In this document: positions 14,894 through 54,420 of the stretch, piece after piece
Position numbering within the stretch: the stretch's first letter is position 1
Layout of the letters: every line of letters begins with the position of its first letter
From: Prochilodus magdalenae
Taxonomy: Eukaryota > Chordata > Actinopteri > Characiformes > Prochilodontidae
Assembly (NCBI GenBank): GCA_024036415.1
Contig: JAMWET010001089.1
Coordinates: forward strand, 1,436,897-1,500,896
Length of the DNA stretch: 64,000 nt
Reading direction: 5' to 3'
The notes under the pieces: model-generated
What the model was told of the DNA's origin: nothing
Databases searched by the model: none
What the model saw: the letters and a program-made list of their open reading frames with translations, nothing else
Translations under genes and position numbers: made by a program

Positions 14894-39351
<24,458 letters not shown>

Positions 39352-41151: not shown

Positions 41152-44100
41152 ATGGAGGACTCTATCGAGGTCATTCTCCAGGACCAGAACTCCAAATTAC
41201 TTCACCGTTACCGGGACAACCGGATCCTCACCTTGGTGACGGGAGCTGTCTTCTCCGGGGTCTACGGGCTCTGGGCCATGTTTTGCATGCCTGGGCTAAA
41301 AGTGCCTTTGCGACTAAAGGTGCCCTTCTTGCCCTCCACGAACATTCAGACAGAGAATGTGATGAAGCTGCTAGATGGACGGCAAGGCCGGCTGGCTGAC
41401 CTGGGCTCAGGAGATGGAAGACTGGTGTGTTTCCAGCCAAGTACATTCATATTAAAGTGTTTGCACTAGGCCATGTAATTAGATGTAGTGTACTATTAAG
41501 AAGGAAGGGTTTTTCTCCAGCGTTAGTATAGTTCTAGATACAGTGGGGTGCGAAAGTTTGGGCAGGGTTGTTAATTTTCCTGATTTACCTTTATAAAGCA
41601 TTGATTGTTTGGATAAAAAAATTGCGTTAAATATATCATATAGGGGAAACACAGTGATATCTGAGAAGTGAAATGAAGTTTATATGATTTACAGAAAGTG
41701 TGCAATAATTGGTTAAACAAAAGTAGGCAGGTGCATTAATTTGGGCACTGTTGTCATTTTATTGATTTCAAAACCTTTAGAAACCTTTGGTTTGGTAAGT
41801 TCAGTGACCCTTGACCTCCAAAAACAGGTGACTCCAATTATGAGAAAGGGTATTTAAGGGGGGCAATTGTAAGTTTTTCTCCTCTTTGCATCTTCTCTGA
41901 AGAGTCGCAGCATGGGAATCTCAAAACAACTTTCAAATGACCTGAAAACAAAGATTGTTCACCGTCATGGTTTAGGGGAAGGATACAGAAAGCTATCTCA
42001 GAGATTTCAGCTTTCAGTCTCCACTGTGAGAAACATTGTGAGAAAATGAAAGACCACAGGCACAGTTCAAGTCAAGGCTCGAAGTGGCAGACCAAGAAAA
42101 ATCTCGAATAAAAATAAGCGAAGGATCTTGAGAACAGTGAGAGTCAACCCACAGACCAGCACCAAAGACCTACAACATGATCTTGCTGCTGATGGAGTCA
42201 CTGTGCATCGTTCAACTATTCGGTGCACTTTACACAAGGAGATGTGTATGGGAGAGTGATGCAGAGGAAGCCTTTTCTCCGACCACATCACAAACAGAGC
42301 CATTTGAGGTATGCTAAAGCACATTTGGACAAGCCAGCTTCATTTTGGAATAAGGTGCTGTGTTATTTGGGCATAACAAGGGCCTTTATGCATGGAGGAA
42401 AAAGAACACAGAATTCCAAGAAAAACACCTGCTACCTACAGTAAAATTTGGTCGTGGTTTAATCATGCTGTGGGACTGTGTGGCCAGTACAGGGACTGGG
42501 AATCTTGTTAAAGTTGAGGGACGCATGGATTCCAATCAATATCAGCAGATTCTGGAGACCAATGTCCACGAATCAGTGACAACGCTGAAGCTGCGCCGGG
42601 GCTGGATCTTCCAATAAGACAACGACCCTAAACACTGCTCAAAATCTACTAATGCATTCATGCAGAGGAACAAGTACAACGTTCTGGAATGGCCATCTCA
42701 GTCCCCAGACCTGAATATTATTGAAAATCTGTGGTGTCACTTAGAGAGCTGTCCATGCTCGGAAACCATCAAACCTGAATGAACTAGAGATGTTTTGTAA
42801 AAAAGAATGGTCTAAAATACCTTCAGCCACAATCCAGACTCTCATTAGAAGCTATAGGAAGCGTTTAGAGGCTGTTATTTCTGCGAAAGGAGGATCTACT
42901 AAAGGTTTTTTTTTTTTTTTGGTGCCCAAATTTACGCACCTGCCTACTTTTGTTTAGACAATTATTGCACACTTTCTGTAAATCATATAAACTTCATTTC
43001 ACTTCTCAAACATCACTGTGTTTGTCCCCTATATGATATATTTAACATAATTTTTTTTATCCAAACAATCAATGCTTTATAAAGGTAAATCAGGAAAATT
43101 AACAACGCTGCCCAAACTTTCGCACCCCACTGTAGTTTCTCAGGTCAGATCTTTTATATAGTGGTGGTGATGGGAACCAACAGTTGCAGTCTACATTATA
43201 TATAGGCATGTTTTCTTATTTGAAAATGTCTGAGGTTTTAGATGTAATGTTGATTTAAACTGACCAGTGTCTGAGGTTTTAGATTTAATGTTGATTTAAT
43301 TGTGGTAAAATGATGTTCTTCTGGTGAGGTAGCTACTACAGGCATTAAATGCCTCAGACCTCTGGTTCCTATCACCACCGCTGTGAGCAACTGTGTGTTT
43401 CACTAGAATTTCTTATCACTCTGAATGACTTTGTTTACATCTTAACAAAGTAAACAGTTTCAAATGTGCAAGATTAATATCTTAATCTTTAAACTGTAAT
43501 ATCTAAATGATACTCTAGAAAAACCAAAAGCTTGTGAAATATCATGATCTTTCACTGTAGGCACTATGCACTGTTATTCTCACAGTAAAGTCTTACACAG
43601 TGGAGGCACATTATTTTGACCACTTTTGATGGTGGCAGTGCGTAACTCATAAAGGAAGTCGTTGAATTCTCTGGGCCCACTCATCCATCTCTTAACTGAT
43701 TTAGGGACAAATCCAAATCACAGACACCCATACATGCTGATTGGTTGTAAGAGCATGACCAAGACTTTTAAGTACTACACTGGCCCCCATATTAACCAGG
43801 CTTGAAACTCAGTTGAGCATCTGTGGGATCACCTTGATTGTCATGTTCACTTTATGGATTCTGAGGAGGACCACAGAGTCTAGGATGTCATTGGTGACAG
43901 GCCCTTTGCACTCTCTGGCCTGCAGGCTACTATATGTAGTGGAAAGGGGGAAGAGCCAGCATAGGAAGTTTGGACAAAATGCCAGATGGTCAATGATGTG
44001 CATACATGGGAGGCGAGACTAAAGTGTAATTTTTAAACTCATATGGTTGGGATAGACTTGTCATGCAAGCTATGGACTTTTGAAGCCATGCGTCATTCTG

Positions 44101-45843
44101 AGTCTGCTAAGTCTGCATCATGCTCATATTATGAACTCCTAATAGATCAAAGCAGAGTTTCTCCATGACAAAAATTAACAGCGGTTTTAAAAATCAAGAC
44201 TGTCACATTCTGTGGTAAAACTGTGGTCCAAAGTTGCTATTAATTTTTTCCCTGTACTGTCTCCTGTGAATTACAAGGGGTTTTTTTTGTACTTAAGGGG
44301 AACACTATTATGTACTCACACCAGCTACTCAAGACTAATGCTAAAGAAATTTAGCAACCACATTTAAAAAAGCTGGCTGGTTTTTGTAGGGTATTTTGTT
44401 GTGGTTGCCAGTCTTATGACACATATGGCCAGTTATGTTTCTTCTTCCGTCTGCTGAGCCGCTAACTCAGAAAACACCAAAAAAAAAACAAAAAAAAAAC
44501 CTTGACACAAAATGGCTCCGCAACAGCTAACAGGCCAAATATGCTACAGAGTGGTAGCATTTTGTGGTCTTTGAGTCTTTAACTTTAATTGGGTGATCTG
44601 AGCTTTATTTTGCTGGAACTGAGCCTGCACTGTGGTGGGTGGAAACTTTAGCATTAGCATTAGCCTAGTCAAAAAGGCTGCAGCTCAAAACACTACAATA
44701 CTGATTCAGTTGAGGTTTCCGTCACTCCAGACTGCTAATTAAGCAAACTAGGCTGAAGGAGCCTAACTGCAATGGTACTGAATAGAACGGAGCAGGTTCA
44801 GTTTGGGTTTTTTGTCCTTCCAAAAGCAGCCATCAGCAAAAAGCCACATTGCATCATTCCAACGAATGGTTTGGTAACCCTGAGCAAGGTTAGCCAACCA
44901 TGTTGAGTAAACCTAAGCATGGTTTGAGAGCGCACCATGTCGAACAGCGTCTGTGTGGAAATGCAGCTGAAGTGGTCTGTTTCCTGCTTAGAACTACTTG
45001 GCCTTGCAGTAGAAAAGAGGCCTGTGTTGAAATACCTATTTTTTTTCATTGGACCAAAAAATGGTTACATACATTACTGCTATATCTCTGCCAGAAGTGG
45101 CGCAGATGTGCCTTAAAACGTGGGCCAATTAAGCATGCCTTAATGTGGGCTAGTTTTGCAGTTTGCCAGAGCCCATATGTTTGCCAGAAGTGGTCCCCAT
45201 CAGCATGCTATCTGGGTAGCATGATTTGAGATCATGCCTGCATAAAACAAATCCAGTCACTAGACAGCGAGGTGCACATATAATAGATCAATATAGTGCA
45301 TAGTGCCTGAACTGAGACACAGCGTAGAACTCACTTGAACAGTCACTTAACCAAATCGATGATTTAAAGCTCTGAACTCAGAATGCCTGTTATTTCAGCA
45401 GCATCTTTTGGTTGTAGGTGTTTGCTGGATGCTCTGCAGGATTTCAGTGCACTGGATTTGAGATCAATTCCATGCTGTTAGCCTACTCTAGAGGCAGAGC
45501 GTGGTGGAGAGGGCTTCCGCACAGTAAAGCTGCCTTTGTTAAACAGGACTTCTGGAAGGTACCCATGATGTCTGTAGATTTAAAACTTGGTTAGATTCAG
45601 TGTTTGGCTATTCTTTGCTATGTTTTTATTACTGTAGGCTCTGTCTTTATGCAGACCGACCTGTCAAACTACATGAACGTGATTGCATTTCTGGCACCCG
45701 CTGTGGTAAGTTACTGCTAGAGGGCACCATTAGGCTTTTTATTGTTTAGTGGGGCCACATGGGGGCGCAATAGGCCAGCGTGTGTAGTTTTAAGCATTGC
45801 CGTAATACTGTTTTTGAGCCAAACTGTTTGATTACTCAGATAC

Positions 45844-45920
<77 letters not shown>

Positions 45921-46738
45921 ATTCTTTACAGAAAACCTTTTGCTTTAACAATTTTGACATGATAAAAATCAGATTTACATTTTTTTATTTGCACAATTAA
46001 ATCCACATAAATCAAATATTTGGTTTTTGGTTTTTAAATTTTTGCACATGGAGATTCCAACAAGTATTGGAAGCCGAAAGGTCTTAGATTATCGTAGTGC
46101 AGTCTGCATGCCTCATTTACCAAACCACATTGGGTTGTTAAGTTGGTAATGGTTTCCGACACTGCACTACACAACATACTGTTGACATGTATCGAGCATG
46201 GACGAAAGTGGGCAACTGCTACTGACATTTAGACATTCAATTTTGTTAACCGGTGACTGTAGCCTTTCATGAGCCCTCATAGTATCTTCTGTTCAAAGCT
46301 GATAAAACACCAAACACCAACCTTTTGACACCAAACATGCATCAACTGATCATCTACACTTGTGTGGTTGAGAGGAAATTGTGTAAGCCCCATGTTCGGC
46401 CAGTCCCACTCTGTAAGAGACAGTGTGACACTGTGTAGGTTGGTGCCACATTGTGATGACTTTTGTGCTTCATTGCTGCTGACAAACATAGTCTAGCGCA
46501 GCAGTCTTGTTGCATAGTTCAAACAACATGTTGTTTTTTGTCTCATCAGATGCAGGATCTGGAGGAGAAGTTGCTGAAAGAGCTTCCTAGGGATGCCCGA
46601 GTCATAGTGTGCCGTTTTCCTTTTCCTAGCTGGCCCCACAGCTGTACTAGAGGCTCTGGGATGGACCAGGTCTGGGCTTATGATGTCTACACAGTGCGAG
46701 ACAGCACCAGCACTTCCTCTTTGAAACCTCAGGGCTAA
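41152..46738 (+). CDS. antkmt: FAM173-family protein lysine methyltransferase, antkmt-like
   Basis: Members methylate mitochondrial proteins: ANTKMT modifies the ADP/ATP carrier, ATPSCKMT the ATP synthase c subunit. Exons 41,152-41,424, 45,418-45,558, 45,655-45,705 and 46,550-46,738 have GT-AG junctions and join in frame to 217 aa. An N-terminal hydrophobic segment (about 25-46) serves as membrane/mitochondrial anchor. Motif I is DLGSGDGR (83-90), followed by [16 protein letters not shown] and the post-motifs FLAPAV and CRFPFPSW...VWAYDV. The FLAPAV and VPLRLKVPF wording favours ANTKMT (FAM173A); DARVI.CRFPFP is closer to ATPSCKMT (FAM173B), so the paralogue is not certain. The family's usual E-L-N-P-W after motif I reads E-I-N-S-M here. 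Intron 1 contains a Tc1-like element. The start is the only in-frame ATG that gives the expected N terminus. Confidence 0.85.
41541..43132 (+). mobile_element. Complete but dead Tc1-like transposon with IR/DR ends
   Basis: 1,592 bp flanked by TA on both sides (41,539-41,540 and 43,133-43,134), as expected for Tc1/mariner. The termini CAGTGGGGTGCGAAAGTTTG and its complement head long inverted repeats of about 210 bp. Each ends in an inner copy of the same word (GTGCATTAATTTGGGCAC near 41,732), giving the outer/inner direct-repeat layout known from Sleeping Beauty-type elements. The transposase starts at 41,913 (MGISKQLS...) and is broken by an in-frame stop after the first helix-turn-helix and by later frameshifts. 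[34 protein letters not shown] and [11 protein letters not shown] remain readable. Confidence 0.93.
43160..43382. repeat. Small inverted-repeat element, family D
   Basis: AGTGGTGGTGATGGGAACCA (43,160-43,179) and its inverted partner (43,363-43,382) bound a 223-bp segment in antkmt intron 1. Inside, GTCTGAGGTTTTAGAT and the following 15 bases occur twice in tandem (about 43,226 and 43,268). The terminal word recurs at 48,451 and 49,486. Confidence 0.7.
43590..44020 (+). pseudogene. Transposase-like relic
   Basis: Bases 43,780-43,850 in shifting frames resemble a DDE C-terminal block: TGGCCCCCATATTAACCAGG followed by GAGCATCTGTGGGATCACCT, the usual codons for WPP.. and EHLWDHL. The opening word CAGTGGAGGCACATTATTTT also looks terminal-repeat-like. 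No frame survives and the family is uncertain. Confidence 0.4.
44021..45417. repeat. antkmt intron 1, right part, with TGGCCC-type repeat copy 2
   Basis: About 45,060-45,225 consists of degenerate CCAGAAGTGG/GTGGGCCAATT/TGTTTGCCAGAAGTGG words and ends in CATGCTATCTGGGTAGCATG. It is the inverted counterpart of 30,121-30,330. The preceding part (44,760-45,060) is probably the same element. The rest of the stretch is ordinary intron. Confidence 0.6.
45850..45915. repeat. (TA)n microsatellite
   Basis: About 33 TA units in antkmt intron 3, 145 bp after exon 3. Confidence 0.98.
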
Positions 46739-46912
46739 AGTGCGCATTGCTTAATTAGACATATTGTTGCATAGAAGTGAAGTGTGTTCACATGCTACTG
46801 TAAAAAGCACAGTGTGGTCTTAACCTGAAGTAGTTACCAGCCCGATGATGTTGATGAGGATATTTCTTTTGCTACTAGATGATGTCTTGTTAAACTACTT
46901 GTTAATATTTAG

Positions 46913-46921
46913 TTTATTAAA
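46913..46921. terminator. Overlapping poly(A) signals of antkmt (+) and gapt (-)
   Basis: The 9-mer TTTATTAAA reads as ATTAAA on plus (46,916-46,921), about 180 bp after the antkmt stop, and as AATAAA on minus (46,918-46,913), about 75 bp after the gapt stop. A second plus-strand ATTAAA follows at 46,928-46,933. The two 3' UTRs would overlap. Confidence 0.55.
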
Positions 46922-46991
46922 ACATGCATTAAAACAAGTAGGCTTGAATTAGATCCGCAGTTGTAAATTGTTGTTTATACATATACTTGGT

Positions 46992-47486
46992 CTATTCATT
47001 GTCATCCACGTGAGGCTCATAATTAACGTAAATGTCAGTGACGTCTATTGAAGTGCATGATAAGTAAATGTCCTCTGTATTGCTCTTCCTCAGGGAGCCT
47101 CCTTGCATCTCTTGGCAATTAGGTTGAGGAGACACATTCACATAGTCATTTTCAGAGTCTTCATCAGTTTGGCCGTCTTGAATTTCATAGTCCTGATTAG
47201 AGTCTCTGTCCTGGTGAGATTCATAATCATGTTCAGAATGTCCATCTTGGTGGCTACCTTGAAATTCGTAGTCATGCTCGGAACATCTGTGGTTTTCATG
47301 TCGAGGTTTGGGAGACGAAAGCTGAAAATCACCAATCCTCTGTCTGCGCTTCCAATACCAAGCCATGAATCCAATACTGAGGCCCAGCACTACAGCTGCT
47401 GCTACTGTTCCACCAGATATAGCCATCGTCATGTCACCATTATTATCAGCATTGCTTGTGTTATTTGAAGAAGTGGAGTTTGACAT
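46992..47486 (-). CDS. gapt: GAPT-like transmembrane GRB2-binding adaptor
   Basis: GAPT is a small leukocyte transmembrane adaptor that binds GRB2 through phosphotyrosines. This frame encodes 164 aa (human 157). It has a short extracellular N terminus with two N-glycosylation sequons (NST, NNT), a transmembrane helix at about 22-45 ending in WYWKRR (human: W-HWKHR), then an acidic cytoplasmic tail with tyrosines at 73, 88, 100, 115, 141, 153 and 156. Y115 (YVNV) and Y153 (YVNY) fit the GRB2 SH2 rule YxN; the first three are in repeated (H/Q)DYE units. I chose the Met at 47,486 because a splice acceptor (CTGTCTCAG) lies at about 47,536, so the frame's upstream extension is probably 5' UTR or intron. 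Position between rab3c and plk2 and orientation match mammalian GAPT. Overall identity is low; synteny carries much of the call. Confidence 0.78.
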   Translation of the reverse strand: MSNSTSSNNTSNADNNGDMTMAISGGTVAAAVVLGLSIGFMAWYWKRRQRIGDFQLSSPKPRHENHRCSEHDYEFQGSHQDGHSEHDYESHQDRDSNQDYEIQDGQTDEDSENDYVNVSPQPNCQEMQGGSLRKSNTEDIYLSCTSIDVTDIYVNYEPHVDDNE

Positions 47487-47534
47487 GGCTGACGATCTGG
47501 CAATGGCTTGTTGGCTTTGACAGCTGATGACGAA

Positions 47535-47950
47535 ACTGAGACAGAATAAATACAAGCAGTTCTGAAATGTGTATTCTTTCCATATGTTAATGAAAAGCTT
47601 AACATTCTTTGCAGCTGCTGTTTTGGTTTTTGGGTTTTTCCACTCTTGTGGAAGCTAAATCGAACCACAGAACAGCAGAAAGTCATTTCATATGCAGTCT
47701 TGCGTTTAAAATGAAAGCATTTCATTAAATTCGTACAAATTGAGGCCTGATGAATGAACATCCACAGTGATCAGTTTTAATTGTTGCAGTGAATTCCATG
47801 TACTAGTCATATACATTAGCTGCACAGTAAAAGAAGAGCTTTACCTTAATCTTCTCGGACGAGAACTGTAGTCTCCTTGAGTGCAGGAAGTCGAGTGGTG
47901 TAAAGTTTGCTTTGCGTGTGATATTTAAGTGTGTGGTCTTAGCGCTGCAG
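47535..47950 (-). other. gapt: Probable 5' UTR exon and intron of gapt
   Basis: Minus-strand donor AAGATTAAG|GTAAAG at 47,845/47,844 can pair with the acceptor CTGTCTCAG at about 47,536, joining a non-coding exon (about 47,845-47,950) to the coding exon. Exon start is not defined. Confidence 0.4.
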
Positions 47951-50279
47951 ATGACTCAAGCTGGATGGCCTCTAAAGCCACATGTCAGTGTATGGGCTCC
48001 TTATTCACTGTAAAGAGATTGTAACCTGGGCCTTTTGAGTTTACTTGTTCAAGCTATACCTGTCGTCAGGTTAGGAGTTTTTGAGATAATTCAGCAGAGA
48101 GTTCTAAAATGATTTCCTCTGTTTATGTAGCTTATACTAGAGGTCGATAATGTTGTTTTCCAGAGGAGAGTGATGGATGATGTTTGGAGAAAATGTGCTT
48201 TTTTGCTCTTTTTAAGGAGCCTCCTTAAGAAAACAGCACGAATATTGCAGATAAATGACCGTAAATCAACTGGAGTCCTGTATTGTACAACAAGAAAGTG
48301 CATTATTGATTTATTTACTGTTTGGGCCAGTTTTAATGAGAATTCGGTCACCCAAAGAAAGACTTTACTGGGGTTTCAAAATCTTAGCAAAAATCTGTCA
48401 AGTGGTTTCATGTGAAGTGGTAAATTGTAGACTATCTTGCATCTCTTTATAGCGGTGGTAATGGGAACCAGGGGTCCCAGTGTGAACAAAACACCATTTT
48501 ATTAACCATCCAAAACCATCAGTGAGCTCATGTGTCTTTTCAGTTTTTATGTGCAACTTTGATGATGGTAAATAGTCATAAATATGAATAGTCATAAATA
48601 TGGTTTTTTTTGGTTTTTTTCATGTGTGTGGACTATTTTGCCTCACAACACCTTGCATATATCCCTCTGTCACGAAGGTGTTGAAATAAACGGATTCACA
48701 GCACATCTTGGGCCATAGCTTTATTCCAGAACTACTACAAAACAAGGTCTCGGAGACCATGCATCATATTAATAACTGTTTGTGTGATAGCGTTCTCTGA
48801 GGGAGCTTTTGGAGGCATTGAACTTGCAAGACGTGTGGTTCCTAACACTGTGAACACATTTGACTTTTTAGAATGAAGCGTCTCGCACCAACAGCTCGGA
48901 ATGACTTTCTCTTTATCTTTTCGGTTTCTTGTAAACAGCCTTTACAGAGCTAGTGGTTAGTGTGGAGATGTTGGGTAGGGTAGCGTACCACAAGGGTGCG
49001 CTGAAGTTCTTTCAGATCCTTACCAAACCCAGTCTTCTCACAACGCTTGTTTGTCACAGAGAGAGAGTAAAACACAAAGACATTTGCTTGCAAATAACAC
49101 ATTCTAGGACTCGTCTCACGTTTCCAGAGTCTTATGTTCTATATCGGAATAGCTTGCCATGTTGTGTTTAGCATCTCTTCCGATGAATATGTTACTTTTC
49201 ACTTTAGAGTGAATATAATAATTTTAGACGTACAAAGAATGACAGAACTGAATGTGTTTATCGTTTCATAAAAATTAGAGCACATGACATAACAGAATGC
49301 AATAATCATGAGAGCATAACCGCTGTTTATCATTCCGAGAGTGCTTTTAATGGTTAAGGAAATTCCATTACAGGGAAACTGTGCGCATAGTTAAATGGCT
49401 AACATACCAGCACAGTCATTCAGAGAGTTTTTGTGTGACATACTTAGTTCGGGAGAAACTTACAGAGCCAGAAACTGCTCACAGCAGCGGTGATGGGAGC
49501 CAGGCCTCTGAGAAGTTTTAGTGCCTCTAGGAATGAGCTTCCTTTTGCAGGAAGTTATTCCACGGAATTATCTGAATACCCTGCCTGATGACATTGTTTC
49601 GTGATAAAGTTTTGGTCTGGAGCGTATCTAAATCTACAAGTGGTGGAGAGATACGTGATAGGTGTTCTAAGGCAAAGTAGTCCCCAAAGCAAAGTCATGC
49701 TTGCTATTATTCTATATTGTTTTCTCATCATTAACATTACATATAGAAACTCAGGAGACATGTGTAGGCTCATTGGTAGTTTTGAAGATATGATTTTTTC
49801 CCCTTGTTTCCTTATAGCATCCTACATGTATCCCTTTGCCATAAATCCAGTACAAAAAATGCATTATTTCATTTATATTAACTTAATAGAATATTATTAT
49901 TAGTATTACATATAGGACACCTGTCCAGGGTGTTTCGTGCCTTCCACCCAGGGGCGACTGAGATAGGCTTCAGCATCCTATGCATGACCCAGGAGGATAA
50001 GCAGCTTGGATGTTGAATGGATGAAAGAACATTAGATGTATATAACATATTTACAATGTATATAAACTCAGAAGACGGGGTTAGACAAAAATGAACATTC
50101 AGCAAAAAGGGCATATGTAAACTGTTGACTGAGGACCCATCTAAAATTGCTGTTTGGGAATCTTGAACCTTTAAAGGGACTCTAACGTCTCTGGCGTTGT
50201 TAACTGTGAAAACAATAGAGGGTAAAAGTAGGAAATGTGTTCCTGTTCTTTATGTATTCCTGTGTGTTCTAAATAATAC
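47951..50279. other. gapt-plk2 divergent intergenic region
   Basis: No gene. It holds two family D terminal words (48,451-48,470, 49,486-49,502). At 49,905-50,030 it also holds a repeat tail (CACCTGTCCAGGGTGTTTCG, then GGAGGATAAGCAGCTTGGAT), a wording very common in fish genomes. Enhancers of plk2 could lie here, but none is evident. Confidence 0.5.

Positions 50280-50419: not shown

Positions 50420-54420
<4,001 letters not shown>

Follow-up and report, generated by a model that had tools for sequence, protein, structure and literature searches.

GAPT is an adaptor which binds GRB2 and is expressed in B and myeloid cells, and the YxN motif is the established site of the GRB2 SH2 domain. Among other adaptors, LAT and LAT2/NTAL carry YVN or YEN sites for GRB2, and SIT1 is characterized by a short sequon-bearing outer part and by ITIM-type sites. 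In the cited passages of PMC4861716, mammalian GAPT was described as having a short extracellular part, a membrane helix and several Grb2 motifs. According to the same passages, the protein was not tyrosine-phosphorylated after Fc-epsilon-RI triggering, and its loss in mice raised both B-cell proliferation and antibody. The knockouts of TRAPs, GAPT among them, were characterized as mild in the cited part of PMC5033326. No publication on a fish GAPT stood out among the matches listed, which does not prove that none has been published.

The window, i.e. the whole stretch of 64,000 nucleotides that was analyzed, was located at the end of contig C1080 in a fish genome of 1.18 Gb. An open frame of 164 amino acids was found on the minus strand between positions 47486 and 46992, with the ATG at 47486 and the stop codon at 46992-46994; the plus-strand reading of 46992-47486 (frame 1) was interrupted by stops. 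The frame had been noticed in the initial annotation and was found to be real, although its strand had not been stated there and proved to be minus. The sequons, the single membrane helix, the basic residues, the tail with two YxN motifs and the three (H/Q)DYE repeats described there were all recovered. The parts of the frame were as follows.

46992..47486, minus strand: coding frame of 164 amino acids (ORF translation)
47430..47486, minus strand: residues 1-19, predicted extracellular N-terminal segment with sequons N3, N8 and N9 (sequence motifs)
47361..47426, minus strand: membrane helix, approximately residues 21-42 (hydropathy)
47319..47360, minus strand: juxtamembrane stretch WYWKRRQRIGDFQL, residues 43-56, with the strongest similarity to GAPT (profile and BLASTP)
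47139..47282, minus strand: four diverged tyrosine repeats, residues 69-116, three of them (H/Q)DYE and the fourth the YVNV unit
47136..47144, minus strand: Y115-V-N, predicted GRB2-SH2-type site 1 (motif)
47022..47030, minus strand: Y153-V-N, predicted GRB2-SH2-type site 2 (motif)

The hydropathy of the protein peaked at 1.86 over residues 23-41, and the helix was followed by WYWKRRQR. Three sequons preceded the helix and a fourth one (N117) was in the tail, which contained tyrosines at positions 73, 88, 100, 115, 141, 153 and 156. The (H/Q)DYE repeats were centered on Y73, Y88 and Y100, while the YxN motifs were YVNV at Y115 and YVNY at Y153. The net charge over residues 61-164 was equal to -22. 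No array was reported inside the coding frame when Tandem Repeats Finder was run on 46900-48100, and no Rfam match at gathering score was obtained over the window.

The neighbors of the candidate gene were the following.

50872..54417, plus strand: plk2, kinase and polo-box exons, divergent neighbor
41152..46738, plus strand: atpsckmt, convergent neighbor between the candidate gene and rab3c
14906..38181, minus strand: rab3c exons

The order in the fish was thus plk2 (plus), candidate gene (minus), atpsckmt (plus) and rab3c (minus). The gene at 41152-46738 was taken to be atpsckmt by its family; in human, this gene lies on the opposite arm of chromosome 5. A long (TA)n repeat was observed at 45851-45913, before the last exon of this gene. 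The candidate gene lay between plk2 and rab3c, on the strand of rab3c and divergent from plk2. Mammalian GAPT is arranged in the same way, on the strand of RAB3C and divergent from PLK2. As far as the gene lists of human and cattle extend in the parts cited, GAPT was grouped there with PLK2 and RAB3C. The GAPT-like place proposed by the initial annotation was supported, except that atpsckmt intervenes before rab3c.

A second block with plk2, then atpsckmt, then rab3c in identical order was found on contig C1418 (C1418:383001-443000). Its plk2 showed 79 percent identity in the last exon, and both atpsckmt copies were retained in the genome. In the plk2-atpsckmt interval of this block, frames of at least 50 amino acids contained at most one YxN, and no notable match to the GAPT profile was detected. 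This would place the arrangement plk2-(gapt)-atpsckmt-rab3c before the duplication, with the other copy of the candidate gene either lost or diverged beyond recognition.

A gene model was predicted which consisted of a non-coding first exon and one coding exon, convergent with atpsckmt.

46992..47535, minus strand: predicted coding exon, acceptor ..TTATTCTGTCTCAG/T, first exon base 47535 (prediction, rank 133 of 4427 AG sites)
47845..47935, minus strand: candidate non-coding 5' exon, donor AAG/GTAAAG, last base 47845 (prediction; 5' limit guessed)
46913..46918, minus strand: poly(A) signal AATAAA, 74 bases beyond the stop codon

The predicted acceptor at 47535 scored 7.1 bits, similar to two rab3c acceptors (6.9 and 7.4), and competes with an acceptor at 47746 of higher rank (101). 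The donor at 47845 scored 7.0 bits, which was weaker than two rab3c donors (9.3 and 8.8), and ranked 95 of 4295 GT sites on the strand, below the donors at 49024 and 49408 (ranks 48 and 59). One rab3c donor and one rab3c acceptor were not recovered in the splice-site calibration. The possibility that the in-frame extension above the ATG (LYLFCLSF...) encodes a signal peptide was considered and rejected, as most of this extension was translated from the pyrimidine tract of the predicted acceptor; the first start codon in it was TTG.

The protein was further compared with the GAPT family. A database search with the human sequence yielded 70 proteins, a profile built from 37 of them yielded 99, and 105 distinct proteins were obtained in total; every relative carrying an organism name was a therian mammal. 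The human sequence was considered usable because it matched the Pfam GAPT model (PF11770) at 279 bits. The fish protein resembled GAPT in its place beside plk2 and rab3c, in the length of the short form, in a single N-terminal helix followed by the conserved WxWK and by F-x-L, and in tail tyrosines set in YxN; a WxW[KRQ]-type pattern was missing from 10 of 103 GAPTs. The same plan and length had been claimed for mammalian GAPT in general, which was correct for the human protein but not for the 28 of 105 fetched proteins with 240-300 amino acids.

Several differences were also recorded. The number of YxN motifs was two in the fish protein, whereas it was 3 to 6 in all 103 GAPTs. The net charge of -22 over residues 61-164 contrasted with -8 for human GAPT from residue 61; the tails of the 103 fetched GAPTs, which were cut differently, ranged from -14 to +6. 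The three DYE repeats set the fish protein apart as well: the remark that they are absent from the human protein was correct, and DYE in the last 130 residues was absent in 89 of 103 GAPTs and single in the remaining 14. The juxtamembrane cysteine, found by a simple pattern in 89 of 103 GAPTs, was absent in the fish protein, which argues against its palmitoylation. The N-terminal stub was rich in sequons, no LRR ectodomain was found upstream and no Pfam match was obtained. The fish protein ended in YVNYEPHVDDNE rather than in the DIYILPD of GAPT, to which EDIYLS at 138-143 was the nearest stretch.

Similarity to GAPT was weak. The Pfam model PF11770, with a gathering score of 21.1 bits, gave no match to the frame at E <= 10 with the HMMER filters on. 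The pairwise local alignment with human GAPT did not score above shuffles: out of 2000 each, 159 full and 317 segment shuffles attained its score; the global score was reached by 22 and 118 of 2000, respectively. A profile of 63 of the 70 GAPTs (length filter) gave 9.7 bits (E 0.034), ranking the frame first of 409 window frames, and 15 of 2000 segment shuffles reached that score. The corresponding values were 11.2 bits and 8 of 2000 for the 37-sequence profile, 12.9 bits and 15 of 5000 for the profile of 103 of the 105 GAPTs, and 14.0 bits and 1 of 5000 for a profile of three marsupial GAPTs, this best figure being flattering because four profiles were tried. No full shuffle out of 5000 reached the score of either of the last two profiles, and with both the fish frame was first among the 409 window frames of at least 50 amino acids. 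Among 20,000 random frames, none reached the 12.9- or 14.0-bit score and three reached that of the 9.7-bit profile.

In BLASTP comparisons, GAPT of brushtail possum was matched with an E value of 2e-7 (single comparison) or 2.9e-5 (against all 105), with AWYWKR and FxL in common, and that of opossum with an E value of 2e-4. The best of the 105 GAPTs scored 34.3 bits, which was reached by 6 of 1000 segment shuffles. This score was reached by 5 of 1000 sequences in which the N-terminal part was shuffled and the tail left intact, and by 973 of 1000 in which residues 1-60 were left intact and the tail was shuffled (142 of 1000 in the comparison with only possum GAPT). Tail shuffles also reached the 12.9- and 14.0-bit profile scores in 321 and 251 of 5000 cases. 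The tail alignment, in which Y115 was paired with the first YENV in the possum protein, is therefore not evidence, because shuffled tails score equally. A weak GAPT-specific similarity above composition was thus located in the membrane and juxtamembrane stretch, to which the tail appears to add nothing clear, and the GAPT claim is carried by the position, the plan and this membrane part. A profile-profile comparison gave a probability of 20 percent and aligned only WYWK and FxL. A search of the whole genome with possum GAPT did not recover the locus and gave one match elsewhere (E 0.29).

LAT, LAT2, SIT1, TRAT1 and LIME1 scored at most 6.7 bits with any of three GAPT profiles (LAT at most 0.6 bits, LAT2 at most 6.7 bits). 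The Pfam models of LAT, LAT2, LIME1 and SIT (PF15234, PF15703, PF15332 and PF15330, all confirmed in Pfam) did not match the frame. The fish protein shares with LAT and LAT2/NTAL a small membrane scaffold, YVN/YEN-type GRB2 sites and an acidic tail, but lacks juxtamembrane cysteines of the palmitoylation type. It likewise shares with SIT1/TRAT1 (Pfam SIT) a tyrosine tail and, with SIT1, a short sequon-bearing outer part, but no signal peptide was found and its motifs were YxN rather than the ITIM type of SIT1.

Two other explanations of the frame were weighed. The frame could have been open by chance, or could be a decayed gene without a protein product. Its length by itself does not exceed chance, as 6 of 60 random 16-kb sequences contained an ATG frame of this length or longer. 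Its synonymous codon choice was indistinguishable from non-coding DNA and counts against coding: the score was -39.6 bits, with a null mean of -37.9 (1132 of 2000 reached it) and a coding expectation of +37.1 (0 of 2000 as low). The codon log-odds of -0.104 per codon was also inside the non-coding range, with 20 of 151 non-coding frames equal or higher. The training comprised 915 codons (3 of 21 exons were left out, lacking a clean frame) from few and conserved genes, so a fast-evolving gene with a GC3 of 0.40, as in this frame, may simply differ from them. No database relatives were found either: a protein search gave 11 word-sharing candidates, none at E <= 1, and detects only relatives sharing 5-residue words; a Pfam scan and a PDB sequence search gave only weak matches without significance, located in the helix region. 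Against chance or decay stands the anatomy, which does exceed chance. Out of 20,000 random 164-residue frames drawn in two base compositions, 1383 had a helix; a basic stretch was present as well in 150 of these, a soluble tail in 60 of the 150, and two YxN in none of the 60, by a criterion chosen after the protein had been seen. In a smaller earlier test, a helix was present in 11 of 102 random frames and a helix with basic residues in none; this latter criterion fits the fish protein rather than the GAPT family, because only 28 of 105 fetched GAPTs passed it. The internal repeat signal of the tail was 58 in the coding frame, compared with 34 and 18 in the two alternative frames of this strand, and was matched by 6 of 1000 shuffled tails. 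Repeat units 1 and 2 kept 10 of 12 residues, 8 of their 12 base differences were at third codon positions and 7 of 9 differing codons were synonymous, an excess which is inflated since the units were selected by residue similarity; in the remaining pairs, synonymous differences were fewer than non-synonymous ones. The frame was also intact, with predicted splice sites and a poly(A) signal. Taken with these points, a chance or decayed frame was judged unlikely.

A real membrane adaptor gene of another or lineage-specific family, settled between plk2 and rab3c and GAPT-like by convergence, was also regarded as unlikely, to a lesser degree. It would account for the tail aligning to GAPT no better than chance, for the silence of the Pfam GAPT model and for the presence of just two YxN, and WxWK-type juxtamembrane stretches could arise repeatedly by chance. 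However, the gene occupies the interval of GAPT, the GAPT profiles prefer the frame over the five other adaptors, and the LAT, LAT2, LIME1 and SIT models do not match it. It was concluded that the frame is, with fair probability, a real and fast-evolving gene and the teleost positional ortholog of mammalian GAPT. The orthology despite little identity, as initially suggested, thus gained support from the position, the plan and the weak GAPT-specific profile match, and it remains a conclusion drawn from them. The protein itself is probably a reduced two-site GRB2-docking variant of GAPT and was not assigned to the Pfam GAPT family.

For such a GAPT ortholog, the following mechanism was proposed. 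If expressed, the product would be a type III single-pass membrane protein whose short N-terminal stub, probably glycosylated, would face the outside and whose acidic, presumably disordered tail would lie inside the cell. Src- or Syk-family kinases of leukocytes would phosphorylate the tail tyrosines, and phosphorylated Y115 and Y153 (YVN) might each dock one GRB2 SH2 domain, which would keep GRB2-SOS or GRB2-CBL complexes at the membrane. Two sites would allow chains via Grb2-SOS1-Grb2 only, as branched networks would need three or more. In the cited passages of a LAT model (PMC3291652), two-site scaffolds cross-linked by Grb2-SOS1-Grb2 formed linear aggregates only, and three sites allowed a gel. 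The acidic DYE repeats may suit Syk-family kinases or other SH2 proteins, and they would supply flanking negative charge of the kind which ZAP-70 prefers at LAT phosphosites, as stated in the cited part of PMC5889215.

The long GAPT forms were also inspected. Twenty-six of them had at least 90 residues before the start of the short form, with N-termini that were signal-peptide-like by eye. LRR_8 matches (E <= 0.005) were found in all five long GAPTs scanned; LRR_8 and LRR_4 exceeded the Pfam cut-off in P0078 only, and a database listing assigned LRR_8 to opossum P0103 too. The matches were in the ectodomain before the helix, and the first residue of the human-type protein of 157 amino acids corresponds to an internal Met immediately ahead of the helix. 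The passages on GAPT in PMC4861716 describe only a short extracellular domain, and a literature search for GAPT, leucine-rich repeat and GRB2 gave a sole match, which concerned breast-cancer stroma. An AlphaFold model of a long GAPT (pLDDT 51.6, pTM 0.29) was set aside. A model of the LRR ectodomain built from the 26 long GAPTs was run against 1658 window frames of at least 25 amino acids and gave nothing significant on the minus strand at 47.5-50.8 kb (best 6.4 bits, E 0.66). A separate observation was a frame at 23252-23500 on the plus strand, within the span of rab3c, which scored 14.5 bits with this model (E 0.0022, 1658 frames), perhaps by chance; it matched no Pfam family.

A wider reading, for which we consider the case evenly balanced, is that GAPT was not invented in mammals but already existed when ray-finned fish and tetrapods diverged, and was masked by a tail which keeps its tyrosine motifs and not its sequence. 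The fish form would then be a GRB2 scaffold with two sites and an acidic tail of DYE repeats, and therian GAPT would carry, or would once have carried, an LRR ectodomain, so that the short form known from human may be a truncated LRR receptor. If true, the GAPT adaptor would be far older than the mammalian-only records found here suggest. A fish ortholog would make GAPT accessible to study in fish, and it would show a GRB2-docking adaptor which kept its place and motif plan while losing nearly all alignable sequence, and would explain why profile searches miss such genes.
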